46,218 nt of DNA from an uncultured Muribaculaceae bacterium (GTDB taxonomy: Bacteria; Bacteroidota; Bacteroidia; Bacteroidales; Muribaculaceae), in contig CAMEPD010000010.1 of the NCBI GenBank assembly GCA_945931475.1, forward strand, positions 1-46,218. The letters run 5' to 3'. Position numbers and translations under genes: made by a program. Positions within the stretch are counted from its first letter, which is position 1. Every line of letters starts with the position of its first letter. Below, in pieces: positions 17,406 through 22,997 of this stretch. The notes below the pieces were generated by a model, which was not told the origin of the DNA, did no database searches, and was given only the letters and a program-made list of their open reading frames with translations.

Positions 17406-17738
17406 CTACAGTCGTCTCGTGCGACTGACACCAAATAACATAATAACATAGCCAAAATTCGTCTTTTTTGTAATCGTTGGTACGCACGGTGCGTGCATCC
17501 GCCTGTCGGAGCTGCCCCGTGCGCTCCCTTTTTGTACCCGGCCACTCCCGCTTACTGCTGATTGAGAAGCCGTATCCGTCCGATATCGGGCGGCTTCGGC
17601 GTAGCCTTGTGCTGTTTCCGTTCCATCAGAGTATTCAATTCCGACCCGATACATGGCTTCGACGTCGCCACTGTTGGCGAGGCGCAGGAGTTCTTCTAAT
17701 GACATATTTTGGTAATCAACAGCAAAAGCGCTTGTGTT
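17406..17738 (-). pseudogene. Truncated Sel1-repeat gene fragment
   Basis: On the minus strand, directly after the stop codon of the 413-residue Sel1 gene, the reading frame TSAFAVDYQNMSLEELL...SGDVEAMYRVG continues to GYAEAARYR. It is closely similar to residues 18-70 of the 201-residue Sel1 protein at 19037-19642, including the end of that protein's signal peptide. The start of the signal peptide is missing and Sel1 similarity stops near 17585, after which the frame runs through a REP-like palindrome to a stop at 17406. It looks like the remnant of a third tandem paralogue that lost both ends, perhaps by unequal recombination. An ATG at 17705 could still start a 99-residue product without a signal peptide. 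Confidence 0.6.
17484..17496. repeat. REP-like palindrome
   Basis: GCACG-GTG-CGTGC forms a 5-bp hairpin inside a GC-rich stretch at 17480-17530. It resembles the palindromes near 19.7 and 44.0 kb and lies in the part of the Sel1 fragment where similarity to its paralogue has been lost. Confidence 0.4.
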
Positions 17739-18978
17739 AGTGGTTTAGGATTTGGAGGCACTGCTCAGCATTGGTGACACCCTGCTCGGCAGCAAGTTTG
17801 TGCAGCCGCTTTGCCTCAGCTATATCCTTGGGCACGCCTCTGCCATTGTAATAACAGATGCCTAATAGATATTGTGAATTAGCGTCTCCATGTTCGGCGG
17901 CATGTTTGAGCCATTTTGTGGCTTCGTTGTAGTCACGTGCTATTCCTTCTCCTTTATAATAAATAAAGCCGAGGTTGAATTGCGCTGGGATATATCCCTG
18001 TTCAGCAGCCTTATGGAACCACAGAATCCCCTCTGACTGATTCTTTGCGACATTTTCTCCCAAATAGTAGCATACGCCTAAGTTGAATTGAGCTGCAGGG
18101 TTATTTTGCTCGGCAGCTTTGCGATACCATTGTATTCCTTCGGTATCGTTGACGGGTATGCCATAACCATTAATATTACAATATCCTATGTTTACCATAG
18201 CAGAGGTTTGTCCCTTTTCGGCACTTTTCAAAAACCATTTTAAGGCTTCGGTATAATCCTGAGGCACCCCTTGTCCATTAAAATAACATAAACCCATATT
18301 AAACATTGCGTCTGCATGACCGCGCTCGGCTGCTCTGCGAAACCATGTCAAAGCCTCATTATAATTTTGAGGTATTCCGTTACCATCGAAATATAATGAG
18401 CCCAATTCAAACTGTGATTCTGCATCTTCTTTTTCGGCAGCTTTGCGAAACCACTTTGATGCTTCGGCAATATCTTGTTTCACTCCCCTGCCATATTTAT
18501 AGCTTAAGGCGATACGATATTGTGCACGGGTATATCCATTCTCGGCGGATTTTAAAAACCATTTCGCGGCTTCTGCAAGGTTTTGTTGTACCCCCAGGCC
18601 CTGGTAGTAACAATCGCCCAGAAAATATTGTGCAAACTCATGGTTTTGCTCGGCTGAACTGTGCCATAATTTTACAGTTTCGGTATAATTCTGTTGTACA
18701 CCATATCCATAATAATAGCATCCGCCTAAATAGAATTGAGCATCAGCATGACCTTGATTGGCGGCTCGGCGATACCATCTGACAGCTTCAGAATAGTCTT
18801 GGGCAACATCATCGCCGTTAAAATACGATAATCCAACGCTACATTGGGCATCAGCGTTACCTTTTACGGCGAGTTCTAATTTTTGAGTGAAAGATGAATA
18901 GTTGGTGGCTGCCAACGTCGTTGCCGATTTAAAACCGATGCATACAATAACGAGAAAAGAAAAAATACGTTTCAGCAT
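17737..18978 (-). CDS. Exported Sel1-repeat protein, ten repeats
   Basis: A 413-residue protein with a signal peptide (residues 1-23, MLKRIFSFLVIVCIGF then ATTLAA) and ten consecutive 36-residue Sel1 repeats from about residue 39 to 398. Each has the pattern (A/S)Q(F/Y)xLGxCYxxGxGVxQxxxEAxKWFxKAAExG. Sel1 repeats form helical solenoids that bind other proteins, often in envelope assembly or signalling, and the export signal puts this one in the periplasm or at the surface. The DNA is clearly more A/T-rich than the GC-rich genes around it, which suggests separate origin or relaxed codon choice. It is followed by a truncated paralogue and preceded 58 bp upstream by another Sel1 gene. The binding partner is unknown. 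Confidence 0.85.
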   Translation of the reverse strand: MLKRIFSFLVIVCIGFKSATTLAATNYSSFTQKLELAVKGNADAQCSVGLSYFNGDDVAQDYSEAVRWYRRAANQGHADAQFYLGGCYYYGYGVQQNYTETVKLWHSSAEQNHEFAQYFLGDCYYQGLGVQQNLAEAAKWFLKSAENGYTRAQYRIALSYKYGRGVKQDIAEASKWFRKAAEKEDAESQFELGSLYFDGNGIPQNYNEALTWFRRAAERGHADAMFNMGLCYFNGQGVPQDYTEALKWFLKSAEKGQTSAMVNIGYCNINGYGIPVNDTEGIQWYRKAAEQNNPAAQFNLGVCYYLGENVAKNQSEGILWFHKAAEQGYIPAQFNLGFIYYKGEGIARDYNEATKWLKHAAEHGDANSQYLLGICYYNGRGVPKDIAEAKRLHKLAAEQGVTNAEQCLQILNH

Positions 18979-19036: not shown

Positions 19037-19642
19037 TTAGCGGGATTCGCCCATTATTTTGAGACATTCGGCGGCTTCTTCGTTGCCCTGATTGGCGGCC
19101 CTTCGGTACCATTTCTTAGCTTCGGTGGAGTTTTTGGGAACACCGCGACCATTAAAATAGCAGCGTCCTAAGAGATATTGAGAAAGGCTGTCGCCTGATT
19201 CGGCGGCTTTAAGAAGCCATTTTGCGGCTTTGTTATAGTCAATGTTTGCCTCGTCCCCCATACCGTAATAGTAATAGAGTGCCAGGCTGCATTGTGCGTC
19301 TAAGTTGTTCTGTTCGGCGGCTTTGCAGTACCATTTGGCGGCTTCATCATAGTCATTCTCCACGCCGTATCCGTTTGAATAGCATGTTCCTAATTCAAAT
19401 TGCGCCTCGGCATGACCTTTTTCAGCTGCCAGACGATACCATCGTGCGGCATCAGTGTATCCGTCGCACTCAATACAACCCAGTTCACAAAATTTACCCA
19501 TACGATATTGGGCTTCGGTGTCACCGGCGTTGGCGAGGCGCAGGAGTTCATCAAATGACATGTTTTGGTAATCAACGGCAAACGCGCTTACCGGGAGGAG
19601 CAGGGCGCACAGGAGGATGACAATGGATGATAAGTGTTTCAT
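19037..19642 (-). CDS. Exported Sel1-repeat protein, four repeats
   Basis: A 201-residue protein with a signal peptide (MKHLSSIVILLCALLLPVSAFA) and four Sel1 repeats between residues about 40 and 190. The N-terminal part after cleavage (VDYQNMSFDELLRLANAGD) is repeated nearly word for word in the truncated fragment at 17406-17738, showing recent duplication within the group. The second and third repeats are the most regular. It is likely periplasmic and a protein-binding solenoid; no catalytic residues are present. It lies on the same strand as the 413-residue Sel1 gene and may share a transcript with it. A palindromic element lies between it and the next upstream gene. Confidence 0.85.
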   Translation of the reverse strand: MKHLSSIVILLCALLLPVSAFAVDYQNMSFDELLRLANAGDTEAQYRMGKFCELGCIECDGYTDAARWYRLAAEKGHAEAQFELGTCYSNGYGVENDYDEAAKWYCKAAEQNNLDAQCSLALYYYYGMGDEANIDYNKAAKWLLKAAESGDSLSQYLLGRCYFNGRGVPKNSTEAKKWYRRAANQGNEEAAECLKIMGESR

Positions 19643-19659: not shown

Positions 19660-19792
19660 TGTAGGGCCGGAAAGCCGGGAGATATAGTGTGGAAGACTGT
19701 CAGCACAGTGCGACCGTCAGATTACATGAGTGTGTATCAAAATTAATATGAGGGGGATAAAATGTGGGGCCGCGGCAGGTCGCGACCCTACA
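19660..19792. repeat. Palindromic dispersed element bounded by TGTAGGG and CCCTACA
   Basis: The element starts TGTAGGG (19660-19666) followed by a GCCGG/CCGG-type hairpin and ends with a GCG...CGC hairpin and CCCTACA (19786-19792). An element of the same plan but only 81 bp long lies at 44001-44081. The end motifs are exact inverses; the inner palindromes differ. This suggests a MITE or paired REP element. Confidence 0.5.
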
Positions 19793-19850: not shown

Positions 19851-20546
19851 TCAGGGAACGAGGTCTGAGAAAAGGTCACCGTCAGCGAGGAGATCATCGT
19901 TGTCGGTATCGATGTTGGCAGGATCATCCCAGCCGTCGGGACCGCCATACATATCAGGCTCGACCTGCTCCCAACCCTCGGGACCGCCATACTCTGCACA
20001 AACAATTTCGTTCGGGTCGACAGGCTGTTCAATTATAGGCTGTTCCATTACGTTCGGGTCGATTGTGACAATCGGAGGCTCAACCTCAATGGGTGGTTCG
20101 ATTTCAATGGGTGGTTCGATTTCAATGGGTGGGTCAACCTCCACGGGAGGGTCAACCTCGCCGGGTTCGTTGCCGGGTTCGTCGCCGGGCTCCTCGGCGG
20201 GTGTGAGTCCGGATACGGGCTCCTCCTCAACAGGCTGCGAAGCGGGGGCGGGTTGAGCTGCTGTTTGAGTGGGGGCGGGAGCGGCAGGCTGAGCAGCGAC
20301 CGGAGCGGCGGCCTCCTGAGTATCCTGTGTGTCCTGAGCGTCGGATTCAGGTTCGGGTTCGGCGTTTTCGGGTATTTCTACCTCGGCGGGTTCTTCGTCA
20401 TCGCCACGAGTGGCCCATACGGCTGCGCCTGCGGCCGCGGCGCCGGCTACGGCTGCACCGCCGGCCATGGCGGCGCGTTTGCCCGAATTTGATTTCTTAT
20501 CGCCCAGGGGTGCGCCGGACAGCGGCTGGATGTTTTTTGTTTCCAT
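19851..20546 (-). CDS. Membrane-anchored acidic protein with two YGGP(E/D)GW motifs; proposed radical SAM substrate
   Basis: A 231-residue protein of no family known to me. Residues 1-23 are short and basic, 24-46 form an Ala/Gly-rich transmembrane segment (MAGGAAVAGAAAAGAAVWA), and the rest is acidic and low in complexity. Residues 50-130 are Glu/Pro/Ala-rich, and 131-160 hold repeats of the type PPIEIE or PPVEVD. The C-terminal 50 residues contain two evenly spaced motifs: Cys183-Ala-Glu-Tyr186-GGPEGW and Met199-Tyr200-GGPDGW, 14 residues apart, then an Asp-rich end. It is 59 bp downstream of the radical SAM/SPASM gene on the same strand. From memory, substrates in the Bacteroidales rSAM/lipoprotein system share a Cys/Met-Tyr-Gly-x-Pro motif, so this protein is a likely target; that is inference. 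Confidence 0.7.
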   Translation of the reverse strand: METKNIQPLSGAPLGDKKSNSGKRAAMAGGAAVAGAAAAGAAVWATRGDDEEPAEVEIPENAEPEPESDAQDTQDTQEAAAPVAAQPAAPAPTQTAAQPAPASQPVEEEPVSGLTPAEEPGDEPGNEPGEVDPPVEVDPPIEIEPPIEIEPPIEVEPPIVTIDPNVMEQPIIEQPVDPNEIVCAEYGGPEGWEQVEPDMYGGPDGWDDPANIDTDNDDLLADGDLFSDLVP

Positions 20547-20605
20547 GATACGGGAAGTTATTTAGTGTGTTAATTTTTCAATATGTGTATAATTCAGATG
20601 TGCAT

Positions 20606-21652
20606 TTACTTTGTGGACTTCAGATTGGCAACGGCGCGTTTGAGGGCATTGAAGTGGCAGCGCATGAGCGAGCCGTCGTCGCGGCGCAGGTGCATTCCGT
20701 CGCCCTGACACCGGTCGAACACGGGGCATTCGGCGCACTCGCCGGTGCGCATCCACGAGTGGTCGCGGTAGGGCCGGAAGCGGTTCTGCCACACGTCCCA
20801 AAAGGAATCGCGGTAGATGTTCCCCTGGTCGTAGTGGCTGCGGATGCTCAGGCATCCGGAAATGTCGCCGTTGATGCGTACCGAAGCGGTGTTGCGCCCG
20901 GCCTGGCAGCGGAAATGACGTTTGCGCACCAGTCCTTCGTAGCCTCCGAGGTACCCCTCGCAGGCGTACGACAAGTCGATTTGCCCCTCAAGGCGTGTCT
21001 GGCGGATGAACTCCATGACCTGCAGGAGCTGGTCGTCGGTGATTGTAAGTTCGGGGTGGCCCTCGGCGCGGCCCATGGGGATGATGGTGAATATGCGCCA
21101 GCGTTTCACTCCGGCCTCGACAAGCATACGGCGTATCTCGGGCAGGTGGGGCAGGTTGCGCGGATTCACGCAGGTGATTACGTCCCACACAAGGTGCGGG
21201 GCCCGGCGGATGTATTGGATGGCGTTGTAAACGCGGTCGAAGGCTATGGGCGAATTGCGCAGCCAGTTGTGCTCGGGGGCGAGGCCGTCGATGTCGATGG
21301 CCAGCGATGTCAGGCCGCAACGCGACAGTTCGCGCATGGTGGGGCCGTCGATAAGCATTCCGTTCGACACGAAACCCCAGTAGAACCCTTTGTGCGTAAT
21401 CTCCCAGCCGCAGCGCATAACGTCGGGGCGCACAAGCGGTTCACCGCCAAGGGTGAAGACTATAGTCTTTGTGTCGGGCTGATGCTGCTTGATTTCGTCG
21501 AGCACCGGCAGGAAGTCCTCCAAGGGCATATCGTCGGAGCGGTGCGCCTTGATGCATTCGCTGCCGCAGTGACGGCAGTTGAGGTTGCAGTTGAGGGTGA
21601 ACTCCCAGAATAGTTGCCTCAGGGGATATGTGGTGGGCGTGATTGGTTGCAT
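20606..21652 (-). CDS. Radical SAM/SPASM protein, rSAM/lipoprotein-system type
   Basis: A 348-residue enzyme. The ATG at 21652 (MQPITPTTYPLRQLFWEFT) is chosen because the family begins there; the longer frame to 21700 would overlap the promoter. The radical SAM cluster motif CNLNCRHC is at about residues 22-29, followed by the SAM-binding GGEPLVRPD. The C-terminal SPASM part has RCQAGRNTASVRINGDISGC, QGNIYRDSFWDVWQNRF, then GECAECPVFDRCQGDGMHL and a final CHFN, supplying Cys ligands for one or two auxiliary Fe-S clusters. This layout matches the TIGR04133-type enzymes of Bacteroidales, which I recall as partners of small lipoproteins with a MYGxP motif. The next gene encodes a protein with MYGGP, supporting a peptide-modifying role. 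Confidence 0.88.
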   Translation of the reverse strand: MQPITPTTYPLRQLFWEFTLNCNLNCRHCGSECIKAHRSDDMPLEDFLPVLDEIKQHQPDTKTIVFTLGGEPLVRPDVMRCGWEITHKGFYWGFVSNGMLIDGPTMRELSRCGLTSLAIDIDGLAPEHNWLRNSPIAFDRVYNAIQYIRRAPHLVWDVITCVNPRNLPHLPEIRRMLVEAGVKRWRIFTIIPMGRAEGHPELTITDDQLLQVMEFIRQTRLEGQIDLSYACEGYLGGYEGLVRKRHFRCQAGRNTASVRINGDISGCLSIRSHYDQGNIYRDSFWDVWQNRFRPYRDHSWMRTGECAECPVFDRCQGDGMHLRRDDGSLMRCHFNALKRAVANLKSTK

Positions 21653-21657
21653 ATCAG

Positions 21658-21690
21658 CAAAATTAGTGAATTTTCTGATAAAGACACAAG
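21658..21690 (-). promoter_or_regulatory. Promoter of the radical SAM gene
   Basis: On the minus strand CTTG (21690-21687), a 21-bp spacer and TAATTTTG (21665-21658) form a good promoter. The -7 box ends only 5 bp before the ATG, so the transcript would have almost no leader. Confidence 0.5.
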
Positions 21691-21764
21691 GTAGCGGCAA
21701 AAACTATCACCTCGGCCAAGAATTTATTACCGCAAAATGGTGGAGTGTGGTACAATAAGTGGCA

Positions 21765-22997
21765 TCATTTGCCGATAATCTCGTCGATATCGATGGCGTC
21801 GGCCGAGCCTTCGCGGGCTTCGCGCACCAGACGGTTGGCTTTGGCGACATTTTTGGTGACGCCGCGCCCGAAACGGTAGCATTTCGACAACAGCGCCTTG
21901 GCCTTGTACATATCCTCGCCATATTCCGAGGCTTTGGTGAGGTATTTCACGGCTTTGGCGTAGTCGCGCGGCACGGCGATGCCGTCGTAGTATCCCTTGC
22001 CGATATAGTACCCGGTAGTCTCCCAGTTGTCATAGGCGGCTGCTCCGTCGGGGCCGAAAAGGCGGTTGAAAATATTCAGCGCCTCGCCGGTCTCCCCTAA
22101 TTTGGCGTAAATACAGGCAAGCATATACGTGTGCTCCGTGCTGTAATCCAAATCATCAGTGGCATACCGGCCGGTAAGGCATTCCAGCGCCTTGCTGTAA
22201 TTCGGGGCTGTTCCGCGGCCGTAGAAGTAGTTGGCAGCCATCTCGTCGGCGCACATGGTATCGTGGCGCCAGCATTTTTCGCCCCAGTAGACCGACTTTT
22301 CGCTGTCGCGTTTGATGGTCTCGCCCATGCCTGATTCCACAGTGCCTGTGGCCAGGTTGCGGCAAAGCCACGTCTGAGCCGGGATGTACCCTGCCTTGGC
22401 GGCGCGCTCTATCCACGCCAGGCCCTCGGTGACGCGCTCCTCGTTCCATATCAGGTTAATGCCGTATGAGGTCATAGCTTTGAGGCAGCCCGCTTCGGCC
22501 GACTGACGGAGCATATTCCGGAAATCGGGATAGTCGTCAGGTGAACAGCCGTAATCCGACGAGTTGTAATATCGGAGGAGGCTATATAATTCGTAAAGCG
22601 CCCCGGGACGGTCGGGAGAACCGGGTTTCACCAGCTTGTCAAGACGCATACGGGCTTCGTTGAAGTACTTCTTCATCAGCTCTTTATCACATTTTACACC
22701 TATCCCCTCGCTCATGCAGTACATCATTGCCCGGGCGGCCTCGGCCTTCTGCAACTCGGTGGATGCGGGGTTGTTGAATGTGTTGAGCCACATATTATAA
22801 TATTTGACATAATATGGGTCAGACTTGCTGACACCTCTAACCTTCATTTCGGAAATCAGTTCCTCGAAGCGGCCGATATCGCCGGCGTCGGCATCGCGTT
22901 TCATGTCGGCAATAATGGGTGAATCGCCCACGGCGGCTGCCGACAGGGTGGTAAGCATAAGTAGCACACCGGCTATCAAACTGTGTAATCTATTCAT
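21765..22997 (-). CDS. Exported Sel1/TPR-like repeat protein
   Basis: A 410-residue protein with a signal peptide (MNRLHSLIAGVLLMLTTLSAAA) and degenerate Sel1 repeats spread through residues about 70-400. The clearest units are EAGCLKAMTSYGINLIWNEE, KAGYIPAQTWLCRNLATG, MAANYFYGRGTAPNYSKALE and ALLSKCYRFGRGVTKN. It is more divergent than the Sel1 proteins at 17.7-19.6 kb and is not their recent copy. Its ATG overlaps the uvrC stop by 4 bp (ATGA), so it is translated from the uvrC transcript, a pairing that is probably positional rather than functional. A periplasmic protein-binding role is likely; nothing shows a specific partner. Confidence 0.8.
   Translation of the reverse strand: MNRLHSLIAGVLLMLTTLSAAAVGDSPIIADMKRDADAGDIGRFEELISEMKVRGVSKSDPYYVKYYNMWLNTFNNPASTELQKAEAARAMMYCMSEGIGVKCDKELMKKYFNEARMRLDKLVKPGSPDRPGALYELYSLLRYYNSSDYGCSPDDYPDFRNMLRQSAEAGCLKAMTSYGINLIWNEERVTEGLAWIERAAKAGYIPAQTWLCRNLATGTVESGMGETIKRDSEKSVYWGEKCWRHDTMCADEMAANYFYGRGTAPNYSKALECLTGRYATDDLDYSTEHTYMLACIYAKLGETGEALNIFNRLFGPDGAAAYDNWETTGYYIGKGYYDGIAVPRDYAKAVKYLTKASEYGEDMYKAKALLSKCYRFGRGVTKNVAKANRLVREAREGSADAIDIDEIIGK

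Follow-up and report, generated by a model that had tools for sequence, protein, structure and literature searches.

The 46,218-nucleotide stretch CAMEPD010000010.1 of an uncultured Muribaculaceae bacterium, hereafter the window, carries a pair of minus-strand genes, of which the first (20606..21652) encodes a radical S-adenosylmethionine (SAM)/SPASM enzyme of the TIGR04133 family and the second (19851..20546), 59 bp downstream, encodes an acidic partner protein with two Tyr-Gly-Gly-Pro (YGGP) tags. In a survey of related loci, the core of these tags, Tyr-Gly-x-Pro (YG-x-P), was found to accompany the enzyme family and to sit on many different protein scaffolds. On balance we favour a leaderless protein splicease as the role of the enzyme, with the partner as its substrate and excision of tyramine at Tyr186 and Tyr200. 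Splicing of the Tyr-Gly backbone would be the most economical chemistry for the pair; it was not named in the initial annotation, which was made from the DNA letters alone and had described the layout of the pair as we find it. All features of the two genes given below are on the minus strand.

The initial annotation had likened the enzyme to the Bacteroidales radical SAM/lipoprotein enzymes and proposed a hidden Markov model search against TIGR04133 (rSAM_w_lipo, a "hypothetical equivalog" in NCBIfam). The enzyme scored 458.4 bits against the curated cut-off of 425, and is hence of this type; the Pfam models Radical_SAM and SPASM also matched above cut-off. It has 348 residues from its ATG, with an alternative in-frame TTG start possible at 21700. 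The predicted CNLNCRHC motif lies at residues 22–29 and forms, as CNLNCRHCGS (21560..21589), a radical SAM cluster motif with a CGS signature; CxxxCxxCGS was present in 91 of 91 family rows (80 from named genomes, 10 from relatives, and Treponema). The SPASM region extends from C249 to the C terminus (20609..20908), and the Cys set on the SPASM side, also noted earlier, was conserved in a 10-row alignment (C231, C249, C267, C306, C309, C315 and C332). Just ahead of the SPASM Cys residues lies a GYLGGYE signature (20936..20956), common to TIGR04103 and TIGR03913-type enzymes. As the Radical_SAM match starts at residue 18, there is no room for an N-terminal leader-binding domain (RRE, the recognition element for ribosomally synthesized and post-translationally modified peptides, RiPPs). 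An AlphaFold2 model from a 10-row alignment (mean predicted local distance difference test score 82.1, predicted template modelling score 0.84) had as its best predicted fold matches SkfB, anSMEcpe, SuiB and PqqE.

The partner has 231 residues and a net charge of -48. Its acidic stalk of PPIEIE-type repeats (residues 132–160, 20067..20153) is followed by tag 1, CAEYGGPEGW (residues 183–192, 19971..20000; proposed splice site E185-Y186-G187), and tag 2, DMYGGPDGW (residues 198–206, 19929..19955; proposed splice site M199-Y200-G201); Tyr186 and Tyr200 are exactly 14 residues apart. Stalk repeats, tag motifs and spacing are as first described. The Ala/Gly-rich hydrophobic segment that had been called a membrane anchor is present (residues 25–43, 20418..20474) but is only borderline as an anchor, with a best 19-residue Kyte-Doolittle mean of 1.59 (1.35, 1.14 and 1.58 in the partners at loci L006, L033 and L032). 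Searches of NCBIfam and Pfam gave nothing above cut-off for the partner, only weak low-complexity matches. It did not match TIGR04134 (lipo_with_rSAM, cut-off 39.8 bits), the family of the usual lipoprotein partners, up to an E value of 10, while P0008, P0009 and the L009 partner, which served as positive controls, passed and the L007 partner reached 31.2 bits; the scaffold is thus different from these lipoproteins, as had been claimed. Nif11 and NHLP leaders likewise gave no match in the partner up to an E value of 10.

Conservation in proteins of this type is concentrated in the tag. When five window-type partners were aligned, the only invariant positions were M1, A39, E123, P145, D198 and the block Y186-G187-G188-P189, so that the YGGP motif is kept where the rest is not, which was a point on which the initial annotation had staked its proposal. 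Similarity between the low-complexity-filtered partner and its congener was confined to the C-terminal part, at 67% over 24 residues around the tags, and the reverse search gave 43% over 68 residues. The 14-residue spacing of the tags is kept in the same-genus homologue L006 and differs further out (21 in L033, 29 in L034 and 19/25/19 in L032, whose partner has the highest count with four copies). A BLAST search of the partner within the genus found, besides itself, one match each in its own genome, in G009 and in G003; at these three loci no YG.[PR] was found in open reading frames (ORFs) except for a 48-residue frame in L118. The match in its own genome (contig C11) is acidic and of like architecture without YG, and had an E value of 8e-4 in a single comparison; we do not claim it as a homologue, as its similarity is confined to the low-complexity stalk.

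We then considered how closely tag and enzyme are associated. Within the genus set (14 genomes of 71 to 99% completeness), the DNA pattern for YGGP-[GDE]-[GDE]-[WFLC] occurred in two genomes, twice in G000 and once in G009, and only at the enzyme locus; a reversed control gave 0. These are the same two genomes in which TIGR04133 is over its cut-off. That the tag pattern was seen in this genus only beside the radical SAM gene is an outcome in favour of the initial annotation. Among 61 relatives there were 11 places with a TIGR04133 match, comprising nine over the cut-off, one of 333 bits and one G058 fragment (a second short G058 fragment was left out), and a YG-x-P ORF lay beside the match in 11 of 11. 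Named genomes were represented by the best 80 of at least 582 relatives, which were not each scored against the TIGR04133 cut-off; Parabacteroides distasonis and Bacteroides clarus are among the carriers covered. YG-x-P was present within 1.5 kb in 69 of these 80 loci; three cases were judged spurious by eye (L031, L041 and L073), leaving 66, one of which (L068) has YG-x-P only in a 478-residue protein of doubtful relevance. In a further 11 named loci, including L041 and L073, the gene next to the enzyme encodes a near match to the tag (YG-x-R, YGPYPGW, YGPAP and others).

A blind test was carried out on 90 loci by counting every dipeptide ab in the pattern ab.P in ORFs adjacent to the enzyme. 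YG.P was present in 72 of the 90, with VY, which overlaps YG, as runner-up at 17; the density of YG.P was 3.95 per 1000 residues in adjacent ORFs against 0.23 in far ORFs (seven loci have a far YG.P). The earlier statement that a Tyr-Gly-x-Pro core is common to partners of this enzyme family is borne out by these counts, and the tag is very probably the target of the enzyme.

The tag is carried by proteins of many kinds. Tagged partners include the TIGR04134 lipoproteins P0008, P0009 and that of L009; a protein with two tags that looks like a coiled coil by eye (L003); a 63-residue peptide that lacks any hydrophobic segment (L004); window-type acidic proteins (L006, L032, L033 and L034); and a protein with a weak carrier-protein match, below cut-off (L040). 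Variant tags are found on a TonB C-terminal domain protein (L041) and, as NTVYGPYPGW near its end, on a Clp_N-like protein (L037). The idea that the core motif recurs on another scaffold is therefore right, but a foreign scaffold is no exception in this family.

Tag statistics were taken from 105 distinct 12-mers of adjacent ORFs. As YG.[PR] was the criterion for picking them, Y, G and P/R are fixed by selection, and a few entries are probably chance. The residue before Tyr was V in 40, M in 28, E in 13, L in seven, C in five, I in four, R in two and K in two, with four singles, while position +2 of the tag also varied (V, P, S, G, T and others). No conservation was seen for the Cys, Met and Trp beside the tags, which had first been put forward as possible modified residues along with the tyrosines; neither Cys nor Trp is required.

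A variable residue before Tyr-Gly fits the rule of the spliceases, which act on X-Tyr-Gly, and both EYG and MYG are present in the partner. In the work on PlpXY, the natural sites are MYG and LYG, test tags carry ..[LG]YGLPI, and tagged proteins, also foreign ones, can be spliced without a leader (PMC10533398); such leader-free action on foreign proteins would fit the hopping of the tag between scaffolds. PlpX is described as a SPASM enzyme of IPR026482 that excises tyramine at Xaa-Tyr-Gly and works with PlpY (PMC11002830, PMC10373908).

We propose that the X-Tyr-Gly-x-Pro tag close to the C terminus of the partner is both what the enzyme recognises and the site that it modifies, and that a 5'-deoxyadenosyl radical made at the SAM cluster sets off the fragmentation of the two tyrosines, Tyr186 and Tyr200. 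Each site would then lose a tyramine unit (C8H9NO, -135.0757 Da) and the chain would be rejoined, converting Glu185 and Met199 to alpha-keto-beta-amino acid (ketoamide) residues. This would take place in the cytoplasm, before any export of the partner, and may need neither PlpY nor a leader.

Support for this chemistry also comes from the kinship of the enzyme. On a Nostoc plasmid, a TIGR04103 enzyme (853 bits against a cut-off of 725) lies between a Nif11 precursor that ends GGRGSIALYGLPPELF, with IALYGLPPELF in its C-terminal region, and a gene for 71 residues whose likeness to plpY lies only in its size and position. TIGR04103 is probably the family of PlpX itself, an assignment that draws on this neighbourhood and on the equation of IPR026482 with TIGR04103. 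In trees of 46 and 38 rows (pqqE in one only; L178 and L179 in the tree without pqqE), TIGR04133 formed a supported group (100/99) with TIGR04103/TIGR03913-type enzymes, the sister enzymes L163, L165, L168 and L171 (in one tree also L178 and L179) and an Agathobacter enzyme. Outside this group were mftC, pqqE, TIGR04053, two Paenibacillus enzymes and L158–L162, five rows that came from the heme-synthase model TIGR04545 with scores under its cut-off.

The signature G[YF]xGxYE was present in 87 of the 91 family rows (with D for the first G in L092 and L107 and A in L009, and absent in L010), in the Nostoc TIGR04103 enzyme and in five TIGR03913-type enzymes. It was not present in mftC, pqqE, TIGR04053 or the two Paenibacillus enzymes, in 28 distinct other radical SAM rows (19 + 11, with two repeats), or in a further 19 rows that include the sister enzymes L163, L165, L167, L168 and L171.

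Several observations weigh against a splicease. By model score the window enzyme is far from TIGR04103 (112.2 bits, E value 2.2e-32, cut-off 725) and that family is not singled out, with TIGR03913 at 111.5 and ahbD at 112.2 bits; TIGR04103 is only fifth of the other families for the Treponema member (91.1, behind TIGR04053 at 106.7), and for the Nostoc enzyme TIGR04133 ranks fourth, behind ahbD. The trees hold no true ahbD row, and the wider group takes in four rows that were found by the ahbD model and have neighbours without the tag. The branch of TIGR04133 is long (2.31), and a clade exclusive to TIGR04133 and TIGR04103/TIGR03913 was marginally rejected (approximately unbiased test, p-AU 0.0416). 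The CGS motif occurs in Tropicibacter and also in enzymes for which no tag is known (Agathobacter, L168, L178, L179 and L181), and Tropicibacter, within the TIGR04103/TIGR03913 group, lacks G[YF]xGxYE though its adjacent ORF has FYGLPPG.

On the side of the substrate, no tagged partner was seen at three of the 80 named loci (L031, L092 and L107), some family tags end in YG-x-R, and in some TIGR04134 partners, such as Treponema P0008, X coincides by eye with the lipobox Cys. A tblastn search for a PlpY-like helper with one query, the Nostoc 71-residue protein, across L001–L110 and the window gave a best E value of 7, a result that a divergent helper could escape. That PlpX belongs to TIGR04103 is also no more than probable. 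Context matters for known spliceases as well: the LYG tags tried on FtsZ were unspliced and only two GYG constructs were spliced (PMC10533398). Finally, none of the passages of the splicease literature covered names Bacteroidota lipoproteins, and an earlier account of the TIGR04133 family as a splicease is possible.

The tag may instead be the target of another radical chemistry on Tyr, Gly or X, such as a Tyr crosslink, epimerisation of X or dehydrogenation, which we hold to be a serious but distinctly lesser prospect. SPASM peptide enzymes catalyse many reactions, TIGR04133 is distant from TIGR04103 in sequence, and among the best predicted fold matches of the model none is a splicease. However, a three-residue cyclophane from Tyr, as in triceptides, needs a beta carbon two residues after the aromatic, and Tyr-Gly-Gly in both window tags has none at +2, so that such a crosslink is impossible there; the flanks of the tag are not conserved; and among the chemistries in the literature passages seen, splicing is the one tied to X-Tyr-Gly. 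A role of YG-x-P as a docking tag only, with the modification falling on a different residue in the partner or on a third molecule, is unlikely. RiPP enzymes do often read a conserved stretch apart from the residues that they modify, but here no block other than the tag is conserved in the five window-type partners, partners across the family are of different folds, and up to four copies occur (L032), as for modification sites.

A thioether from Cys183, three residues before Tyr186, would resemble those of sactipeptides and ranthipeptides, which have a Cys at each site, and Cys does occur in 34 of the 105 tag 12-mers; yet 71 of 105 have none, window tag 2 has no Cys nearby and the L006 partner is Cys-free, and since the flanks are also not conserved we regard this chemistry as very improbable. 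That an orphan enzyme merely lies by chance beside an unrelated low-complexity protein, as the lack of a family match above cut-off and the stalk might suggest, is contradicted by the co-distribution of tag and enzyme in the 14 genus genomes and at 72 of 90 loci, and can be practically disregarded.

Observations on enzymes near the family were also made. In the sisters L163, L165, L167, L168 and L171, no YG-x-P was found in conserved neighbour genes, and YG.P was present only in short ORFs at least 750 bp from the enzyme (L165 3254–3388; L167 333–554 and 576–719). Three of these, L165, L167 and L171, from other Bacteroidota and with CAS for CGS, have a conserved neighbour of about 100 residues (SIRLHLKFDPSVVMYLVI...) without a YG tag, of which L163 has a distant form; sister enzymes and neighbour are another unnamed enzyme-partner pair. 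Homologous proteins beside the sister enzymes of L178 (941–1417) and L179 (2619–3116) end in LYMAHSK and LYGTPPVPLYQAPSK, where a tag may possibly have been gained or lost. All 13 DUF1843-type peptides beside TIGR03913-type enzymes (L120, L121, L123, L176 and L177) carry x-Tyr close to the N terminus, and in eight of the 13 Gly comes next, so that x-Tyr-Gly may be a site of action for the GDL system too.

TIGR04133 is patchy in its distribution, being over the cut-off in nine of the 61 relatives and in three of 395 genomes sampled phylum-wide (own genome included in both). Relatives of the enzyme are numerous in gut Bacteroidales, with at least 582 stretches encoding one in the scan of named genomes, in which stretches were not each scored against the cut-off. 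The system also occurs outside Bacteroidota: a megaplasmid of Treponema saccharophilum (L112 3562–3951) has TIGR04133 and a CYGMP lipoprotein beside an Mpi-type invertase gene.

The support for one operon that the initial annotation drew from a promoter and a hairpin does not rise above chance level. The initial annotation had placed a single promoter ahead of the enzyme, for which we find no evidence: the Bacteroidota consensus TTTG-N17-23-TANNTTTG has two matches in the window, at 1065 and 6520, and none near the pair, and no sigma-70-like site was found ahead of the enzyme gene. One minus-strand sigma-70-like site (20573–20545) overlaps the start of the partner gene, at chance level (two found against 1.2 in shuffles). 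The terminator-like hairpin 3' of the partner gene does exist (19767..19788, minus strand), but is not above chance (one found against 2.1 in shuffles). An Rfam search of the window gave no match.

Sel1-repeat genes lie on both sides of the pair (17737–18978, 19037–19642 and 21765–22997). In the congener G009, two Sel1 genes enclose the pair at one edge of an island (L183, contig 184, 3432–14258) whose genes are of the FHA-like, caspase-like (C14), acidic Ala/Gly-segment, PP2C, Ser/Thr kinase and Sel1 kinds. The window genome has a like island on another contig, C11 (L184 3118–12492), without the pair between its two Sel1 genes. The place of the pair thus differs between these two congeners, although it is flanked by Sel1 genes in both. 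A movable cassette might show such a pattern, for which two genomes are no proof; no similar DNA was found in plasmids. Tight linkage of the caspase-like island gene to the enzyme was rejected, as the gene is present in five of 14 congeners, three of them without the enzyme. Kinase genes also adjoin L031–L033, and a truncated ORF in L034 has WG repeats (Pfam) and is kinase-like by eye only.

More tentatively, gut Bacteroidota and a Treponema may possess a portable splice-tag system, in which a splicease free of PlpY and leader puts ketoamide electrophiles into full-length proteins of different folds, and the window protein, with its acidic stalk, could be a two-headed Glu/Met protease trap. 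Many of the tagged proteins would be lipoproteins or otherwise anchored, and in the congener the island that holds the pair encodes a caspase-like protease, a kinase and FHA proteins. The beta-residues of spliceotides are reported as protease inhibitors in a review (PMC10373908), and X would on this basis act as the P1 residue and set the protease bound: elastase- or chymotrypsin-like for V, M or L, trypsin-like for R or K, and glutamyl-specific for E. If the enzymes are spliceases, backbone ketoamides would be present in proteins of many gut species, and the tools for protein labelling would be extended by enzymes that perhaps work without a helper.

The enzyme and its standard lipoprotein partner are already known as families without known chemistry; no paper was found in our literature search that names TIGR04133 or the RefSeq-type partner names. 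As far as that literature shows, the family-wide YG-x-P statistics, the range of scaffolds and the link to spliceases are new, with an earlier description possible (e.g., Scott et al., 2022).

Among known systems, the window enzyme has fold and sequence matches to solved SPASM enzymes (SkfB, SuiB, anSME, PqqE and MftC), whose substrate motifs differ from the tag; mftC and pqqE fall outside the wider tree group, and SkfB, SuiB and anSME were not in the trees. The TIGR03913 GDL-motif maturase shares that group and has a GY[YF]GPYE signature, but is accompanied by two or three tandem DUF1843 peptides of 54–78 residues, none of 13 with YG-x-P. The TIGR04133/TIGR04134 system agrees in its enzyme family, its Tyr-Gly-x-Pro tag and the adjacent position of the partner gene. 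In contrast to TIGR04134 partners (RefSeq "radical SAM-associated putative lipoprotein"), the window partner has no lipobox that we could see and no carboxypeptidase-regulatory fold was found in it, and its acidic stalk bears a pair of YGGP tags towards the C terminus. PlpXY, with its Nif11/NHLP-type precursors, differs in its PlpY, its leader and its small peptide product, none of which was found for the window pair, and in the bit scores already given (112 against 725). The two systems share an X-Tyr-Gly site and a SPASM radical SAM enzyme, the window family shares its tree group and signature with TIGR04103, and Pro at +3 is common to PlpA2-type tags, the Nostoc core and the window tags.

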